Below the pieces are notes generated by a model. That model saw nothing but the letters and a program-made list of their open reading frames with translations. It was not told the DNA's origin and ran no database searches. Source: Leptospiraceae bacterium (GTDB lineage Bacteria > Spirochaetota > Leptospiria > Leptospirales > Leptospiraceae). From it: a stretch of 64,000 bases of DNA. Made by a program: the position numbers and the translations under genes. Location: contig CANGZW010000006.1 in NCBI GenBank assembly GCA_947458405.1, forward strand, positions 1 through 64,000. The letters run 5' to 3'. Positions 882-60,628 of this stretch are shown one piece after another; position 1 is the stretch's first letter; each line of letters starts with the position of its first letter.

Positions 882-3062
882 TTACCTTAGAGGTAATTTT
901 ATCTCAAAAATTGTACTACCCTTCTCTGATATAAATGAAATACTTCCCTTGTGCTCGCTAACTATTTGTTTGGATATATGAAGACCTAGACCCGCCCCCT
1001 CTCCCGCTTTTTTTGTGGTAAAAAAAGGTTCAAATATCTTTGGTTGTATCTCAGGAGAAATTCCCTCTCCATTGTCCTGAAAACAAATCTGAATTTCTCC
1101 TTCTTTCGCTCTTACTGAAATGGAGATATCACCCTCCCCTTTTACTGCCCCTATTGAATTCGATAAAATATGAGTCCATAGTAGCACCAATCTTTCGGGA
1201 TAGCATTCTATTTCTGGTATAACATCAAATTCTTTTGTAAGGTTGATACCCTTTCGGATATAATTTGAATAAATCGTTAGAGCGGATTCTATTGTATCGA
1301 TTATACTGGCTTTTTTTAGAGTTTTAAAGGTCGTATCTTCTGAGAGACTTTTCAATGCAGAGACAATCTTGGTTGTTTTGGAAACGGATGTTGTAATTAT
1401 TTTGGATTTTTTTAGAATACCTTTTTCTTTTTCAATATATTTTAAGATTACGGATATGTTTTCTTTTTTCCATAAAATGTCGTACGACTCAGAAAAATTA
1501 GTAATACCTAGAGGAAGAAGTGTTTCTACAATTTCTTCTGCCATTGAAATATTTCTATCTTGGAGAGTTTTGAGGATAGATTTCTTTAATGATCTAATTT
1601 CTTTGAGTGTCAATTCTTCTGAATCTTCATTATTCAAGATAGAATCCAATGCTATTATTTCTAAACTATTTAAATTATTATATACCATGGAAGCAAGACT
1701 CGATGAGTCAGAGAAACTCAATTGGATATTTTCTGCACTGGCTTTGATAGCTCCTAAAGGAGTATTCATTTCATGGGCAATCCCATCTACAAGTTGACCG
1801 AGTGCCGCTAGCTTTTCAGAGCGAATCAATTTTTCTTGGGAATTTTTGAGGTCGTTCAGAGCGGCTTCCAATTTAAGTTTAGATTCTGTTATTAGATTTT
1901 TTTCTTCTGTTGTGATTTCTAGTGCCTTGATTGTAGTATTCAAATTTTTTACCATATGATTAAAGGATTTGGCTAAATCAGAGAACTCATCGTGGGTTTT
2001 GATTTGGATTGTGTAATCATAATTTCCTCTGTCGAGTTCAGTTACTCCTTTTTGTATCACTTTTAGAGGAGAAGTAACTTGTCTTGAAATCAATAGGGAT
2101 AGAAAAAAAGATAAAATAAAACCTGCTATAAAAATACAACTTGTGATAGTCATTATACTTTTATTGAATTCAACTATTTTATTCATGTGAACCATGAGAA
2201 TTATATAACCTGTAATCTCATTTTGTGAGTTTAGAATTGGTTGGTAAATATTTAGAAAATCTCCATTTTCTACTCCCTTAGTCGAATAGCTATAGGTAAA
2301 ATTTTTATCATATTTATTATTATAATATTTTTCAAAAATAGAATTTTCGAGACTTGATATAAAATATATTTCATTTGGAAGACTAGTTGTATCCCCTTTA
2401 TTTACAAAATTTAGATCAAATTTTAAACTTAATTTATCAATAATAAGAGAATTATCATTAATATAACTATTATTTTTATTAATAATTTGATTATCAATAA
2501 TAGCTGTGAAATTATTTCCTATTATAAATTTTGCTATTAACTTATTATTTATGTATAAATTCCCATTCTCTATTAATACTTTGTAATAGCTTTCGAAAAT
2601 TTTAAGCTGAAATTCTTTTTCATGCTCTATTTCATTCCAAACTAAAAAAATTTTCCCATTTCGATTTTTTATTTCAAATGATAGCTCACTACTATCAAAC
2701 CAAAATAAATCAGATTCTGCTATTGTTCCATCAATTATATAATTATATTTATTTTCATTTTTATTATAATTTATAGTATATAACCACTTAATACTTTTAT
2801 CATTCTCAAGAATATCTCTAAATACCCTTAAATATTGCTTATAAGATTCGTTTTTTTTATAGTTTTCATAAGTAATGTTCTTATGAATATCTCCATCAAT
2901 CATCGAGGAAATACTCATTATTAATTGCTTTTTTCCCTCTAAAAAACTATTGAAGTACAGTTCTCCCAAATAAGTATAAGTTACATACCCTAATACTAAA
3001 GAAATCAATATACTTTGAATTGTAACCCCGATAAGAATCTTATTTTTAACTGAAAAAAACAT
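882..3062 (-). CDS. Membrane sensor histidine kinase with HAMP domain
   Basis: Two-component sensor kinase of 726 residues that should autophosphorylate a histidine and pass the phosphate to an unlinked response regulator. A transmembrane helix at about 8-32 and another at 303-325 bracket a large periplasmic sensor region. HAMP follows (326-380), then a coiled-coil linker. The H-box is AHEMNTP with His430. The N-box has Asn635, the G1 box is DNGEG (663-667) and the G2 box GAGLGLHIS (688-696), so the ATPase domain looks intact. About 110 residues separate the H-box helix from the second dimerisation helix (near 555-575), an unusually long insert. The gene lies 18 bases downstream of uvrA, probably in the same transcript. 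No receiver gene is adjacent, so the signal and partner are unknown. Confidence 0.9.
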
Positions 3063-3080
3063 TGTATTACTCTAAACTCC

Positions 3081-5897
3081 CTACCCCAAAATCCCCTTCA
3101 AATACTGCCCTGTATATGAATTTTTAATCTTTACAATTTCTTCGGGAGTTCCCGTGCCTACCACATAACCTCCCCCGTCTCCCCCTTCAGGTCCCATATC
3201 TATGATATAGTCAGCACACTTGATAACATCTAAATTATGTTCAATAACTATCATGGAGTTTCCTTTTTCCATGAGTGTTTGTAGTACTTTCAATAATTTC
3301 TTAATATCATCAAAGTGAAGCCCGGTAGTCGGTTCATCCAATATATAAAGTGTCTTACCTGTGGGACGTTTAGAAAGTTCTGTGGCTAGTTTTATTCTCT
3401 GTGCTTCTCCCCCGCTAAAAGTGGTTGCTGCCTGTCCGAGTTTTATATAATCGAGTCCCACTTCACTTAAAGTATCTAACTTTCGTTTGAGCGATGGTAT
3501 ATTTTCAAAAAAAACAACCGCTTCTTCTACTGTCATGTCCAATACATCAAATATATTTTTTGTTTTGTATCTCACTTCTAGGGTTTCTCTGTTGTAACGT
3601 TTTCCCCCACATACATCACACACCACATAGACATCTGGTAAAAAATGCATTTCGATTTTTAAAATCCCATCTCCCTCACATTTTTCACACCTCCCTCCTG
3701 AAACATTAAAACTAAATCTTCCCGGTCCATATCCTCTGAGTTTGGCATCTTCGAGTCCAGTGTAGAGCTCTCTGATGGTTGCAAACAATCCAGTATAAGT
3801 GGCAGGATTTGATCTTGGGGTTCTCCCTATAGGAGATTGGTCTATACTGATAACCTTATCGATATACTTCATTCCCTCAATTTTTTTATGTTTACCACTC
3901 ACAACTTTAGCACGCATGATTCTAGCCGCCAATTCATTGTGTAAAATTTCATTTACTAGTGTAGATTTTCCACTACCCGAAACCCCAGTCACAACCGTAA
4001 GACACCCAAGAGGAAAGTTTACATCCACATTTCTCAAATTATTCTCAGAGGCACCAATAACTTTTAAAAATTGACCATTTCCCTTTCTACGCTCTTTGGG
4101 GATTTCTATAGAAATTTTACCAGATAAATACTTCCCCGTGACAGAATTTTTATTCTTTTTTATTTCTGAGGGAGTTCCTTCTGCTATCACACTCCCCCCA
4201 TGCACCCCCGCACCGGGTCCCATATCAATTATGTAGTCTGCTTCCTGCATGGTTTCTTCATCATGCTCAATGACCAAAACTGTATTACCTATATCCCGCA
4301 GGTCTTTGAGTGTATTGATCAGTTTTGTATTGTCTCTCTGGTGTAGTCCAATAGACGGTTCATCCAGAATATAGAGGACTCCCATGAGCCTTGAACCAAT
4401 CTGGGTCGCCAATCGTATTCTCTGTGCTTCTCCACCTGAGAGAGTTCCAGCACTTCTTTCTAAAGTGAGATACCCCACTCCCACATCATTTAAAAATTTT
4501 AGTCTTTGGATAATTTCTTTTAAGATAGGTTTCGCGATTATATCATCCGATCCTTTTAATTTCAAATTGCTGGAAAAATGGAGGGCTTTTTCTACACTTA
4601 GTGATACATAATCATAGATACCCAGTTTGTCTACTTTTACAGAGAGACTCTCAGGTTTGAGTCTTTTTCCTTCGCAAGAGGGACAGGGGTGATTTGTCAT
4701 AAAGGACTCATAATATTGTCTCATAGCATCCGACTTGGTTTCTTTGTATCTTCTGCGTAAATTCGGTATTACACCCTCAAAATATCTAGAAAACTCTCGG
4801 TGGGAATCTTCTTTTCTGAAGTCATAATCAATATTAATACTCGAATCGCCATACAGAATAATTTTTTTTGCAGTTTTAGGTAAATCCTTCCAGGCAGAGT
4901 TGATATCAAATTTTAGGCTTTTTGCTAACGCATGGATAGTAGCCATATACCAATATCCACCCGACTTTCCCCAAACCTCCAGACATCCATCAATGAGGGA
5001 AGTCTCGGGATCATTTACGATCAAATCCTCATCAAATTCCATAAGAGTTCCCAAACCATCACATTTACTACAGGCGCCTTGTGGAGAATTGAAAGAAAAA
5101 ATACGGGGTTCCAAATCGGGTATGGATATATTTTCACAATTAGGGCAACTCAAATTCTTGGAAAAAAAATAATCCTTATTCATATCATTGATGATGATAT
5201 TACCGTTACTCTCTTTTAAGGCAATTTCTACCGAATCACTCAGTCGACTACGTATTCCATCTTTGATAACAATTCTATCCACAACTATGTCTATTGATGA
5301 TTTAATATTTTTTTTGAGTATCACTTCTTCTTCAAGTGATACAACTTCTCCATTTACTCTTACCCGATTAAATCCATCTTTTCTTGCTTTTAAAAATACT
5401 TCTTTGTGCTCTCCTTTTTGAGAACTAATTACAGGGGAGAGAATCATGAGCTTAGCCCCTTCACCGAAATGTAAAATCCGTTCTATGATTTGATCGGTGC
5501 TCAAATTGGAAATAAGGGCACCACATTTATAACAGTGCGGCTTTCCAATTCTGGAGTACAATAATCTAATATAGTCATATATTTCAGTGACAGTGCCTAC
5601 TGTTGACCTCGGGTTACGATGAGTAGTTTTTTGCTCTATAGAAATGGCAGGACTCAAACCCTCGATTAAATCCACATCGGGCTTGTCCATTTGTCCCAAG
5701 AATTGCCTTGCGTAAGATGACAGACTTTCTACATATCTTCTCTGACCTTCTGCATAGATGGTATCAAAGGCAAGGGAAGACTTACCCGATCCGGATAGAC
5801 CTGTAATGACAACTAATTTGTCCCTAGGAATATCTAAGTTTATATTTTTAAGATTATGAGCCTTCGCTCCTCTAATTTTAATATGTGTCAGTGACAT
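3081..5897 (-). CDS. uvrA: UvrA, nucleotide excision repair ATPase
   Basis: DNA damage-recognition subunit of the UvrABC excinuclease, acting as a dimer with UvrB in the cytoplasm. At 938 residues it has the usual family length. Both ABC ATPase modules are visible. The first has Walker [10 protein letters not shown] near residue 33 and signature [12 protein letters not shown]; the second has GVSGSGKST and signature [12 protein letters not shown]. Cysteine pairs for zinc are present in the N-terminal half (CYKCG; CPNC) and in the C-terminal module (CEKCEGDG followed by CDVCGG). The start is the ATG at 5897, giving [11 protein letters not shown]. It is divergent from the flavin reductase gene across about 80 bases. 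Confidence 0.97.
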
Positions 5898-55115: not shown

Positions 55116-55754
55116 CTAATCAATGAGAGAGTCTTTTGCTTTGGTATAAATTAAATCTTCTTTGGTATCAAATTCTGGAAAGAATTCAAAAAATAATTTT
55201 CGCGGAACTACTCGATATTTCCTGGGTTTTGCTTTTAAATAAGACTCTGTAAATGGGATATTGGGAAGTTGATGAAAATTATATCTATCTTCAAACCCAT
55301 AAAAATCAAATTTATTGAATTTATTGGAATGCTTGATAACATACTCCTTAATGTAAACCCAATCCAGCTTAAAGTGAACCCTTGTTCCCCGGAATGCAGG
55401 TGATCGTTCAATTAAATTGACAAGTCTATTGAGTGGACACTGTAAATTATAATAAGGAGTCACATATACCAAAACAAATCGCATACTTAGACCCATTGAT
55501 TCCCAAACAACTTCATCACTTTCCAATTCTTTTTCACTTTTGATATCATCTAAAATATTGATAAGTTCAGGCTTTAATTTGGTATTTTTTGACACAACTA
55601 TATCATTTACGGCACCAAATTCTCCATAATACAACCATTGGTATAAATCTTGGAGCTCAAAGAAAGGATTTTTAGTTATAAAACTTTGAACACTAAATAC
55701 CCTTTGGTCATTAGTTATATTTGTTCCCGGTTCTGTTGAATTTGTTGGTACCAT
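55116..55754 (-). CDS. Conserved hypothetical protein
   Basis: A 212-residue soluble protein with no signal peptide or membrane helix. It is rich in aromatic residues, with a Lys/Arg-rich segment AKPRKYRVVPRKLFFEFFPE near its C-terminus. PFFELQDLYQWLYYGEFG and FKLDWVYIKEYV are typical of a globular helical fold. No domain is recognised. It follows der on the same strand by about 34 bases and could be the last gene of the midasin-like/smpB/der operon. Confidence 0.65.
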   Translation of the reverse strand: MVPTNSTEPGTNITNDQRVFSVQSFITKNPFFELQDLYQWLYYGEFGAVNDIVVSKNTKLKPELINILDDIKSEKELESDEVVWESMGLSMRFVLVYVTPYYNLQCPLNRLVNLIERSPAFRGTRVHFKLDWVYIKEYVIKHSNKFNKFDFYGFEDRYNFHQLPNIPFTESYLKAKPRKYRVVPRKLFFEFFPEFDTKEDLIYTKAKDSLID

Positions 55755-55788: not shown

Positions 55789-57135
55789 CTAAGTCTCAAC
55801 TTGTTTTCTTTCACGAATTTCTAATACGATAGGAACTCCTAATAGTTCATATTCTTCTTGAATTTGCTTTTTTAGAAAAGATACAACATTGGGTTTAAAT
55901 AAATCCTCATGATTTACAAATATTATCAATTTAAAGGGAACAGATGAAACCTGAGTCACATAAAAAATTTTAGGACGCTTTTTTCCAAAAGAAGCGATAC
56001 CATTGTTTTGAATCCAATCTCTTAGCTTAGTACTTAACTCATGAGTACTAACTTTAACATGTGATTTTTCATATAAATCCACACACATATCCAATAGTTT
56101 ACTAGTTCTTTGTTTTTCTGTTGCGCTGATACTAATAGCAGGAATATCTACTACAGAGTACATCCTAGAAATCATCTTTTCCTTATACTCAGCAAATGTA
56201 TTAGAATGCTTTTCTTTTATAAGATCCCATTTATTCACAGCAAATAAAGAGAGCTTTCCCTTCTCTCGAATTATTGAAAATATTTTTTTATCATATTCTC
56301 CGAGCCCCTTGGTTGCATCGAAAATATGTATTACAATATCACATTTTTCTATTGTTTTCATTGCTCTTGAAAATGAGTAAAACTCAATCGGATCATCGGA
56401 ATTTTGACCCTGTTTTCTAAGTCCTGCGGTATCTATTAATTCTATTAATCTATTCTCATGTTTTATGACAGAATTCACACTATCTCTTGTAGTACCTGCT
56501 AACTCACTAACTGCAGAACGATTTACTCCTGAGATTGCATTTAGAAGACTTGATTTTCCCGAGTTTGGTTTTCCTACGATAGCTATCTTTATTTCTGGTT
56601 TCTCAATATCTCTTGCTGGAAAATCCCTAATAAAAAATAGAATTTTCTCATTTAATAATTTTAAGTTCCTTCTTCCTAAAGCTGAAATTGGTAGTACTTC
56701 CCCTATTCCCTGCTTATAAAAAAACTCTAAATCAAAATCCTCCTCAGGATTATCCGACTTATTTACGCAATGCAATACATTTTTATTTACAAATCTTTTA
56801 TCTTTTTGGAATAGAGAGATGAGCTTAAAATCATAATCACGAATATCACGTTTATCCATCAAAAAGATGATTACATGCGATTCGAGGAGTTGTTGAAAAC
56901 TCAATTCAATAACAGATGCTGATAAATCATCTATATTCTCAATATCTAACCCTGGAGTATCACATATATTATATAAAATTTTACCTTCTTCATCTTCCAC
57001 AGGGTAACGTATTATATCTCTTGTAACTCCTGGAAAATCATAAGTGATAGCAATTTTCTTTTTTAGAATGGCATTAAATAGAGTTGATTTTCCTACATTT
57101 TGCCTCCCAACTATTGAGACTATAGGTATTTTCAT
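55789..57135 (-). CDS. der: Der (EngA) GTPase
   Basis: A 448-residue tandem-GTPase essential for maturation of the 50S ribosomal subunit. The first G domain has [17 protein letters not shown] and NKSD; the second has [21 protein letters not shown] and NKWD. The C-terminal KH-like domain includes [14 protein letters not shown]. Length and order are as in other bacterial Der proteins. Its start overlaps the smpB stop by four bases. Confidence 0.96.
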
Positions 57136-57611
57136 TTATTCCTCATTTTTAGTGCTCTATCAATTTCTATTTTTGCTTCTCTTTTCTGAATCGTATCACG
57201 TTTATCATATAATTTTTTAGGTTTTCCTATTGCAATTTGAACTTTTACAAATTCTTTTGGATTAAAATAAGATCTAACTGCTACAACTACTAATCCTTTC
57301 TCTTTAATCATTCTTTCTAATCGAATAATTTCTTTTTTCTTGAGGAGTAATTTGCGCTGTCTAATTTCGGGATGATTAGCATATCCACCATTTTTATAGG
57401 GAGTTATATTAAAACCCTCTAAAAATATTTCTCCATTCTTAATTCTAGCAAAAGCATCGGTAAGATTTGCCCGTTTGTCCCGAAGACTTTTTACTTCAGA
57501 ACCGGTTAAAACAATTCCTGCTTCAATAAATTCAATCAGCTCAAAATCAAATTTAGCTTTCTTATTCGTAACTATTTCTTTATACTGACTTTCTTTATTA
57601 TCTTTAGACAT
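57132..57611 (-). CDS. smpB: SmpB, trans-translation tmRNA-binding protein
   Basis: A 159-residue SmpB, which delivers tmRNA to stalled ribosomes. The OB-fold motifs are [20 protein letters not shown] (split at the A as needed), [17 protein letters not shown] and [17 protein letters not shown]. The C-terminal basic tail contains [20 protein letters not shown], typical for the family. The tmRNA gene was not seen in this window. It lies 11 bases downstream of the midasin-like gene. Confidence 0.95.
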
Positions 57612-57622
57612 ATATGTTTAAC

Positions 57623-60600
57623 TCAAATTGTATGATTGGTTAGAATCAATTTTGACAATTCACTCCCCAATAAATTAGGCATATTCGTAAAATTATCCCC
57701 CGTAATTTGAATTGAGTCATGAAATATTTCCTCAGCAATGTATCTATTCCCCAAGCCAACACCCAGTAGAATATAAGATTTATTAATACTTTTTAAAACA
57801 TATTCTTTTAATTTTCTATTTTCAAAAGAAGAAAGTTCCTGTTCTACTGTTGATTTACCCCTCTGTCCCCTGAAATCAGAAATCATTACAACGATACGAG
57901 TGCTTGAATCAGGAGAAAAATATTTCTCTAAATTTTCAAAGAGTAAATATTCATGTACGCTATCTCCCTGCCAATCAGTTGTGAGAGAGTCAAAAATCTC
58001 TTCTTCTTTATTAATTGAATACTCATCTTCAAAATTCTTTAAATTGATTAAATCTATATGATCTTTTTTATTTAACCGATCGCTATATGTATAAATACTA
58101 AAATCAACATCATGATCATTTAGAATTATCGAAGACGTAATCAGAGCACTCAAAACAACCACAGAATATTCAAAATTAAATATTCTTCTGGATTTTGATA
58201 CCAGAAATACAACCTCAACACCCTTTAATTTCTCTGTTTTTTTATCAATAATTGTCTTATCAAAAACTTTTGTATCACCTCTACCATTTTTAAAGGAAAT
58301 ATATTTTCTAGCATCTATTCTTCTACCTTGGTGTTGGTAAACTCGTGTAATATCAATTTCCGGATCAAATAGCTTTTCTAAATTCATTTCCACGCTTTCC
58401 AATTCCTTTCCAAATATTTCCATATACTCTTTTCTAGTAACTGTCATACTGTACGACCATAGAATCTTTCTTTTGGCTAGAAATTGTTTATATAATTCCT
58501 CCGTTCTGTATCCCCAGGCTCCCCCGCCTCCTGCAGGCTCCCCCTGTCCCATATTTCCTCTAGTATCTTTACCATACCAGGCATCCGCACCTTCTTTTGT
58601 ATTCCCACCTGTCTCCGGGGTGTTAATTTCGATACCTTTCTTTAGAGGATTTCCACTTGCCTGTATTTTTGCCTTTCCTGTTAGTGGATCTCTTTTGTGT
58701 AACTCAGGATCCCACCATATTTTTTTTTCAATATTACTGCTTAGGGTTAGAGTTTTTTTTTTATCTTCTAGCTTTTCAAAAAAATCTTCTTCTAACTTAA
58801 AAGACTTTAATCCATTCTCCAAAAATTTCAAAATATCCATTCTTTCTTTAGGATCATAAATTTGATTAATATAAGATATCTTACAACCAATTATAATAGA
58901 ATTAAAGTCTTCTGTTTGCATATTTTTAGCTATAAATTGCGCCCAAAAAACTAAATTTGAAGTTCCAAAAATATAAGGATTTAAATTTGCAGATCCTATT
59001 ACCCGCCTATGTGAAAGTCCTCTAATTCTAACATGGAATTGTGTTAACAGATTTGTTAAATTAGAAACAGGTAAATAATACTCCACAATTTGACGAAGGG
59101 AAGACTCTTCATTAAATGTTGGATAGAGCACCGAAGTGAAACGATTCCTAAATGCTCTCGATATTGTAGTGGTAGATTTAGATTTTCTAAATTGTTTATA
59201 GGCAAAGATTATTGAATTATTTCCTAATACCAATGGCTTTGTGCTTCCACTTTCAGGAGGCAACAAAATAGATCTTGCATCATCTGTTAACATATTTAAC
59301 TTTTCCACTAACTCAGCCCCCGCAGATTCTAATGATGTAATACAAATTATACTATCATTTTTAATTCCACGGGTGAGCGGACCATCTAACCATTCTATTT
59401 TATTGTTAATTGGCTTTAATGAACCGAGAATATCTGAAGTGTGAATTCCCTTGCATAAATTCACAAACTCTACTTCATTTCCAGTGATACAAGTTACAAA
59501 TTCCTGTAGATATAATGAATCATCCTCGTCTGAATATTCAATTAAGATATTCTCTTTGAGTTGTACAGAGGTTATTATTTTTTCTAAAAACCCTAAAATT
59601 TCTGGAGTTAATGGTCTTGATAATAGTAGTTTTTTTATTTTTTCAGGATTCTTAACTATAATTTGCTTATCATTGCAATATAAATATTCTTCATTTACAT
59701 ATAATTTGATATCTGTTATTAATGGCACCGATTTACTATTTAACTCAGAATGAATCAAATCTTCTTGGGATTTTCTATCTTCCGGATTTCTAAAACAATC
59801 TGAATAAAGGGCTAAGACTTCTCTCAGTAAAATTGATTTATCATTGACATTGAATTCAGACAACCGAAAACATAATTTTTTTAAAGTTCTCAAATTGAAG
59901 TGATATTTTTCTAGGTCACCTTTTCCTAAGTTACCCAATAATATTCTTTTTTCAGTTTCTAATGTAATACGTATACAATTTTTAATTAATGACTCTGTTA
60001 ACTCAGGAAATAAATTTTTCAAAATAAAATAGAGTTCATCGGGGGGATACGGATCAACATAAACTACTGCAAAGTTTTTTGTAATTTCAAAGGGTAATGA
60101 TTTTCTTCCTTCAAAGCCTTCCGAAGGATTTTGGGTAGCAATAAAAGAAAATCCATCTGTTTTTGGGATTTTTTCGCCGCCCCCCTCCATGAGGTCTAGA
60201 TAGGATGACTCATACAAAGTAGAAAATCTTTTGATGACACTAGTTGATGCTAAATTCATTTCATCAGCCACAAAAGGAATTCCTTCCTGAAGTGCATTTA
60301 CTAATGGTCCATTTACCCACTCAAAAGCATTTCCACTCATCAATAGGCGATAGGATCCAATCAAATCCTCGGGTAGGGTATCTTCATTAAAGCTAAATCG
60401 TATAGTGGGATAATTGCGAAGGGAGTTGATATAATAGATTAATGCATTTTTTCCTACACCTGCATCCCCTATCAATAAAACGGGGAATCCTTCTAGTAGA
60501 GGATATAAGATATTCCTAAGATTACTTTTGGTAGTTTCTGTTTCAACTAAATTGGAAGTATGTATTATATCGTTGTATTTCTTGTTACTTTTCGGTACTT

Positions 60601-60628
60601 TTATACCGGCTATATTTACTGTTTCCAT
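57623..60628 (-). CDS. Midasin-like AAA-AAA-VWA protein
   Basis: A 1001-residue soluble protein combining two AAA modules and a VWA domain. Module 1 (about 35-300) has Walker A GDAGVGKN (54-61), FEWVNGPLV, Walker B VADEMN (120-125) and sensor IATQNPSEGFEGRK. Module 2 (about 380-515) has DILGSLKPINNKIEWLDGPL, the arginine-finger motif SRAFRNRF and no Walker A, so it looks ATPase-dead. A Gly-rich linker (670-706) precedes a VWA domain with RIDARKYI (770-777). The MIDAS motif, normally DxSxS, reads VSKSR, so the metal-binding Asp is missing. The order and the DGPL/RNRF motifs are those of midasin (Rea1), not classical MoxR plus separate VWA genes. It precedes smpB. Confidence 0.82.
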   Translation of the reverse strand: METVNIAGIKVPKSNKKYNDIIHTSNLVETETTKSNLRNILYPLLEGFPVLLIGDAGVGKNALIYYINSLRNYPTIRFSFNEDTLPEDLIGSYRLLMSGNAFEWVNGPLVNALQEGIPFVADEMNLASTSVIKRFSTLYESSYLDLMEGGGEKIPKTDGFSFIATQNPSEGFEGRKSLPFEITKNFAVVYVDPYPPDELYFILKNLFPELTESLIKNCIRITLETEKRILLGNLGKGDLEKYHFNLRTLKKLCFRLSEFNVNDKSILLREVLALYSDCFRNPEDRKSQEDLIHSELNSKSVPLITDIKLYVNEEYLYCNDKQIIVKNPEKIKKLLLSRPLTPEILGFLEKIITSVQLKENILIEYSDEDDSLYLQEFVTCITGNEVEFVNLCKGIHTSDILGSLKPINNKIEWLDGPLTRGIKNDSIICITSLESAGAELVEKLNMLTDDARSILLPPESGSTKPLVLGNNSIIFAYKQFRKSKSTTTISRAFRNRFTSVLYPTFNEESSLRQIVEYYLPVSNLTNLLTQFHVRIRGLSHRRVIGSANLNPYIFGTSNLVFWAQFIAKNMQTEDFNSIIIGCKISYINQIYDPKERMDILKFLENGLKSFKLEEDFFEKLEDKKKTLTLSSNIEKKIWWDPELHKRDPLTGKAKIQASGNPLKKGIEINTPETGGNTKEGADAWYGKDTRGNMGQGEPAGGGGAWGYRTEELYKQFLAKRKILWSYSMTVTRKEYMEIFGKELESVEMNLEKLFDPEIDITRVYQHQGRRIDARKYISFKNGRGDTKVFDKTIIDKKTEKLKGVEVVFLVSKSRRIFNFEYSVVVLSALITSSIILNDHDVDFSIYTYSDRLNKKDHIDLINLKNFEDEYSINKEEEIFDSLTTDWQGDSVHEYLLFENLEKYFSPDSSTRIVVMISDFRGQRGKSTVEQELSSFENRKLKEYVLKSINKSYILLGVGLGNRYIAEEIFHDSIQITGDNFTNMPNLLGSELSKLILTNHTI

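Follow-up and report, generated by a model that had tools for sequence, protein, structure and literature searches.

The window, by which we mean the whole stretch of 64,000 nucleotides that was analysed, belongs to a 3.94-Mb draft genome whose named relatives are Leptospiraceae or Leptospirales MAGs and one Turneriella MAG. Its reverse strand carries a gene for a protein resembling eukaryotic midasin, followed by smpB and der (Table 1). The spacing given in the preliminary description stands: smpB lies 11 bases downstream of the midasin-like ORF and overlaps der by 4 bases. Conservation of the midasin-like ORF across 36 genomes rules out chance. A neighbouring stretch of the window (55116-55754, reverse strand) encodes a 212-aa protein that has no Pfam match and whose position downstream of der (or plsY) is conserved within the family. 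A PADLOC search for defence systems gave no match.

Table 1. Genes, domains and motifs of the midasin-like locus, in positions of the window
Feature	Position	Strand	Basis or remark
Midasin-like 2xAAA-VWA protein, 1001 aa, ATG start	57623..60628	(-)	ORF; profiles, fold, family
AAA1 core (aa 20-195), ATP-binding	60044..60571	(-)	AAA_5; profile against midasin AAA5, 130.6 bits
AAA1 Walker A GDAGxGKN (aa 54-61)	60446..60469	(-)	Asn replaces Ser/Thr in 27/27
AAA1 Walker B FVADE (aa 119-123)	60260..60274	(-)	Invariant, 29/29
AAA1 lid (aa 196-300), midasin lid AAA_lid_7	59729..60043	(-)	PF17867 over cut-off
AAA2 core (aa 336-500), Walker A/B lost	59129..59623	(-)	Profile against midasin AAA4, 86.7 bits; motif counts
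AAA2 arginine-finger segment SRAFRNRF (aa 490-497)	59138..59161	(-)	R494 and R496 in 29/29
AAA2 lid (aa 501-610)	58799..59128	(-)	Model; AAA_lid_7 also matches here in G015, G016, G019 and G028
Linker (aa 639-712), predicted disordered, candidate pore-docking segment	58493..58714	(-)	43% invariant
VWA-like domain (aa 755-1001), NorD/midasin-MIDAS type fold	57626..58366	(-)	Fold match
Former MIDAS DxSxS (aa 811-815), now S-K-S-R-R	58184..58198	(-)	Motif counts
smpB	57132..57611	(-)	NCBIfam equivalog; adjoins midasin-like gene in the window's family only
der	55789..57135	(-)	NCBIfam equivalog; 4-base overlap with smpB

Pfam matched AAA_5 twice in the 1001-aa protein, along with the midasin lid AAA_lid_7 above cut-off. 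Together with a VWA domain confirmed by fold, these matches bear out the earlier view of two AAA modules and a VWA in one chain. The two modules are unequal, and the chain has neither the six tandem modules of midasin nor the single module per chain of the MoxR, NorQ and CbbQ homohexamers. Its VWA is fused in the same chain rather than encoded next door as a separate protein of the MoxR type. An AlphaFold model, computed from 29 sequences and no templates, reached a pLDDT of 78.9 and a pTM of 0.60, at which the relative placement of the modules is only moderately sure; confidence was low at residues 629-722. The best PDB matches of the model in Foldseek were dynein and midasin rings, reached through the tandem modules, and S. 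pombe Mdn1 (6or5) aligned with it over 626 columns at an rmsd of 5.3. In the model, both modules carry a helix-2 hairpin insert before Walker B (strands 91-95/102-106 and 402-407/410-415), and both inserts align with those of NorQ and midasin. The clade of MoxR, dynein and midasin marked by this insert has been defined previously (PMC7159879), and homology places the protein firmly within it.

Active-site residues differ sharply between the modules. Members share the AAA1 Walker A consensus GDAG[VIST]GKN, and the acidic DE pair of Walker B and the TQN sensor are invariant. AAA1 has lost its own arginine finger, since the residue preceding the finger-loop Phe is Y, H, N or L, and Arg in 0 of 29 members. 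The second module was described at the outset as ATPase-dead, and indeed all 29 members lack both the P-loop and the acidic pair at Walker B of AAA2, which keeps the finger consensus SRA[F/L]RNRF. These invariant residues indicate a division of labour in which AAA1 would be catalytic and AAA2 would give the finger. The Walker A Asn, found in place of the usual Ser/Thr, is constant in all members; because of it, hydrolysis by AAA1 is not certain. Rea1 completes its AAA4 site with a finger supplied by AAA5 (PMC6286127). By analogy with this polarity, AAA2 would complete the AAA1 site within one chain. Where AAA2 meets the next AAA1, both the nucleotide site and the finger are missing, which points to about three chains per ring. 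The DGPL and RNRF motifs that the preliminary description likened to midasin are present, RNRF in AAA2 only. NorQ-type proteins encoded in these genomes share DGP[LM] and RxRF, so these motifs on their own are not diagnostic of midasin.

Between the AAA modules and the VWA lies a glycine-rich linker of about 75 residues, which differs from the long linker and D/E-rich tail of midasin. It is the most conserved segment per residue (43% invariant at 639-712 versus 21% for the whole protein), and AlphaFold predicts it to be disordered, with a pLDDT below 50. Two known systems offer parallels: the MIDAS loop of Rea1 is disordered, highly conserved and binds in the ring pore (PMC6624252), and a finger of NorD is inserted into the NorQ pore (PMC13036017). 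The VWA itself is assigned by fold, since sequence searches returned neither a Pfam match to VWA families in any of the 29 members nor a credible PDB profile match. Modelled alone, the C-terminal part reached a pLDDT of 83 and matched the NorD VWA first (E 4e-12), the midasin MIDAS domain next (E 4e-9) and integrins later. The C-terminal domain thus has the VWA fold, of the NorD/midasin-MIDAS type, with DxSxS lost in 27 of 27 members and replaced by [N/S/A]-K-[G/S/A]-R-R, in which K812, R814 and R815 are invariant; the degenerate MIDAS reported earlier is thereby confirmed. T/S890 and D918 are kept. VWA domains without the aspartates have been reported in other MoxR systems (PMC7159879).

The family occurs in 36 of 48 genomes of one Spirochaetota class (22 of the 30 good genomes) and, at E 1e-25, in none of 345 other Spirochaetota genomes. 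A pattern scan of 84,980 species returned only this spirochaete group and one MAG labelled Hydrogenedentota. As far as searched, the midasin-like AAA+/VWA remodeller is confined to one bacterial class, and among viruses and plasmids the search met only single MoxR-type or CobS-type modules. Several individual records deserve mention. The gene found in the Candidatus Hydrogenedentota MAG J094 (L075:3-2864) sits on a contig that fits that of G041, a genome assigned to this spirochaete class by the whole-genome set, and the label looks wrong. The copy in G020 (KatS3mg129; L079:10001-13010) is disrupted by several stop codons and frameshifts, and two other genomes of that genus, G009 and G010, have no copy, which may reflect loss under way or sequencing error. 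The viral contig L135 holds the usual two-gene form, with a MoxR-type AAA gene at 1875-2810 followed by a VWA gene at 2985-4016 with an intact DTSGS.

Likeness to midasin, as proposed in the preliminary description, is supported by per-module profile scores, the midasin lid and the fold, with the core tree joining AAA2 only. Midasin is also the top whole-chain sequence match (E 5e-83); such whole-chain values are inflated by summing six repeats and were set aside as proof in favour of per-module scores. In profile searches, both modules score nearer eukaryotic midasin than any other solved protein. With its lid, AAA1 reaches 130.6 bits to yeast midasin AAA5 versus 61.2 to CbbQ, and AAA2 reaches 86.7 bits to midasin AAA4 versus 35.6 to NorQ. 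The midasin lid is matched in 26 of 29 members, and across 393 Spirochaetota genomes PF17867 exceeds its cut-off in 24, always within the midasin-like protein.

The same modules can also be read as an ordinary MoxR or NorQ/CbbQ descendant in which two modules and a VWA were fused, the likeness to midasin being convergence or a set of shared ancestral traits. The AAA1 core without its lid is nearly tied, at 43.8 bits to the best midasin module versus 41.3 to NorQ, and the top fold match of the VWA is NorD. The tree of AAA cores, in which lids were excluded and midasin was represented by budding and fission yeast (S. pombe) modules only, partly truncated, sets AAA1 outside midasin and weakly with MoxR-type sequences. 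In AU tests, placing AAA1 with all odd midasin modules was rejected (p 0.006), and AAA5 alone was borderline (0.0585). However, profiles that include the lid prefer midasin, with margins of 69 and 51 bits, none of the 14 control genomes has the midasin lid, AAA2 joins midasin in the same tree at 93/92, and a single clade of both modules with midasin was not rejected (p 0.23). Moreover, several of these genomes carry NorQ-type genes next to norB-like ones, which marks the midasin-like protein as a separate one; a NorQ role for it was rejected on this ground. The midasin affinity of the AAA modules is therefore probable, and a plain MoxR-type descent appears doubtful. A more specific ancestry follows the alternation of midasin modules: the best AAA1 scores fall on odd modules, and AAA2 scores best on the even module AAA4 and carries the even-type segment D-[ILM]-[LI]-G-x-x-[KR]-P. 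The protein might be a living relative of the two-AAA unit that built the single-chain midasin ring, with three chains making up today's bacterial ring and a triplicated pair in one gene giving the six modules. The AU rejection of an odd-module origin for AAA1 counts against this scenario, which is rather improbable and is kept only as a possibility.

Gene context bears on two further readings, both concerned with what the protein acts on. In six genomes of the window's family (f1), representing four genera, the midasin-like gene stands beside smpB-der, and its spacing to smpB ranges from a 4-base overlap to a gap of 11 bases. G011, which belongs to another family, has the gene about 9 kb away from der. 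As midasin acts on pre-60S (PMC6286127), such an arrangement could befit a bacterial midasin proper that works with Der and SmpB on the 50S, either in its assembly or in rescue. Yet the linkage is absent in G004 of the window's own family, and across the order, including the whole of family f2, smpB and der are paired with no midasin-like gene beside them. Partners outside the family, f2 and f3 among them, are a gamma-carbonic-anhydrase-like gene, ribBA, guaA or unrelated genes. All eight good class genomes without the protein retain smpB and der, and the protein has lost the MIDAS metal motif on which Rea1 depends for its UBL clients. The preliminary description would have yielded to two findings combined, namely closest relatives of the MoxR/CbbQ type and an unconserved smpB-der linkage; the former is not what the searches returned, and the latter holds outside the family. 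Local gene order is what speaks for the proposed role in ribosome assembly or rescue; beyond this the role finds no support, and the reading is improbable. In f2, the gene directly downstream in 14 genomes encodes a gamma-carbonic-anhydrase-like LbH protein (at L041:10875-11537, for example, and in the same place in 13 other genomes), often followed by ribBA, and in three f2 genomes, all of one genus, it overlaps the midasin-like gene by 4 bases. Among 30 good genomes, 19 carry both genes, 3 the midasin-like gene only, 1 the gamma-carbonic-anhydrase-like gene only and 7 neither (Fisher p 0.0004, uncorrected for kinship). Together with the insertion of iron by NorQD (PMC13036017), this co-occurrence would be consistent with a chaperone of the MoxR-VWA type that matures an enzyme, perhaps a gamma-carbonic-anhydrase-like metalloprotein. 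Nevertheless, f1 and f3 show no linkage between the two genes, the midasin-like gene occurs without its putative partner in G003, G005 and G012 and the reverse holds in G010, and the genomes without both fall in few clades, so that the correlation may amount to one or two losses. We consider this chaperone role unlikely. Upstream of the f2 gene, in divergent orientation, lie genes for an aminotransferase and a prepilin peptidase, which recur in G002 of f1; this recurrence suggests that the midasin-like gene came to lie beside smpB-der at a later stage. A link to aerobic respiration was discarded, as COX1 is nearly universal in the class and uninformative.

The reading we favour, and hold to be probable, is that of a single-chain AAA+/VWA remodelling machine with midasin-type modules and lid, a composite active site and a ring of roughly three chains. 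ATP would be bound and hydrolysed by AAA1, and the dead AAA2 would contribute its arginine finger in cis, so that each chain has one active site between its modules. About three chains would then assemble into a pseudo-hexamer with three active sites. The linker and VWA may dock at or inside the ring pore, much as Rea1 uses its MIDAS loop and NorD its finger, and ATP hydrolysis could exert force on a client gripped by the metal-free VWA surface. The domains, the motif losses and retentions, the fold and the distribution are what was observed; the ring stoichiometry, the docking and the force we infer. The most likely type of client is a protein complex found within the class, among which the ribosome is one candidate only, and an improbable one.

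Three known systems come closest to the remodeller. It shares with midasin (Mdn1/Rea1) the closest AAA modules by profile, a midasin-type lid, the AAA-linker-VWA order in one chain, the finger polarity and a conserved disordered segment tied to the VWA. Unlike midasin, which has six modules in about 4900 aa, a 1700-aa linker, a D/E-rich tail and a MIDAS metal motif, the bacterial protein has two modules in 1001 aa and lacks these other elements. Midasin, a giant machine, also has a ribosome role, in human cells stripping factors from immature ribosomes; for such a role the neighbours of the bacterial gene offer no general support. NorQ-NorD and CbbQ-CbbO share the AAA+ with helix-2 insert, and NorD is the VWA partner nearest in fold; they differ in having one active AAA per chain, a homohexamer and a separate VWA, whereas the present chain combines two unequal modules with the VWA. 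The dynein heavy chain shares tandem AAA modules in cis and gives the top Foldseek matches, but it has six modules, no VWA and hardly any sequence match save weak ones around the lid.

No description of a bacterial midasin was found in the open-access literature, and the literature searched describes no prokaryotic counterpart of the six-module midasin and dynein chains. What appears new is a variant of the AAA+/VWA remodeller with midasin-like modules, one predicted to be catalytic and one to give only the finger, and a fused VWA. The loss of the metal motif suggests that AAA-VWA machines may be able to work without a MIDAS metal. If the proposed mechanism is true, two midasin-type modules with a fused VWA would offer a compact system in which to study how AAA-VWA machines generate force, and a bacterial protein of two modules would bear on how single-chain rings arose.
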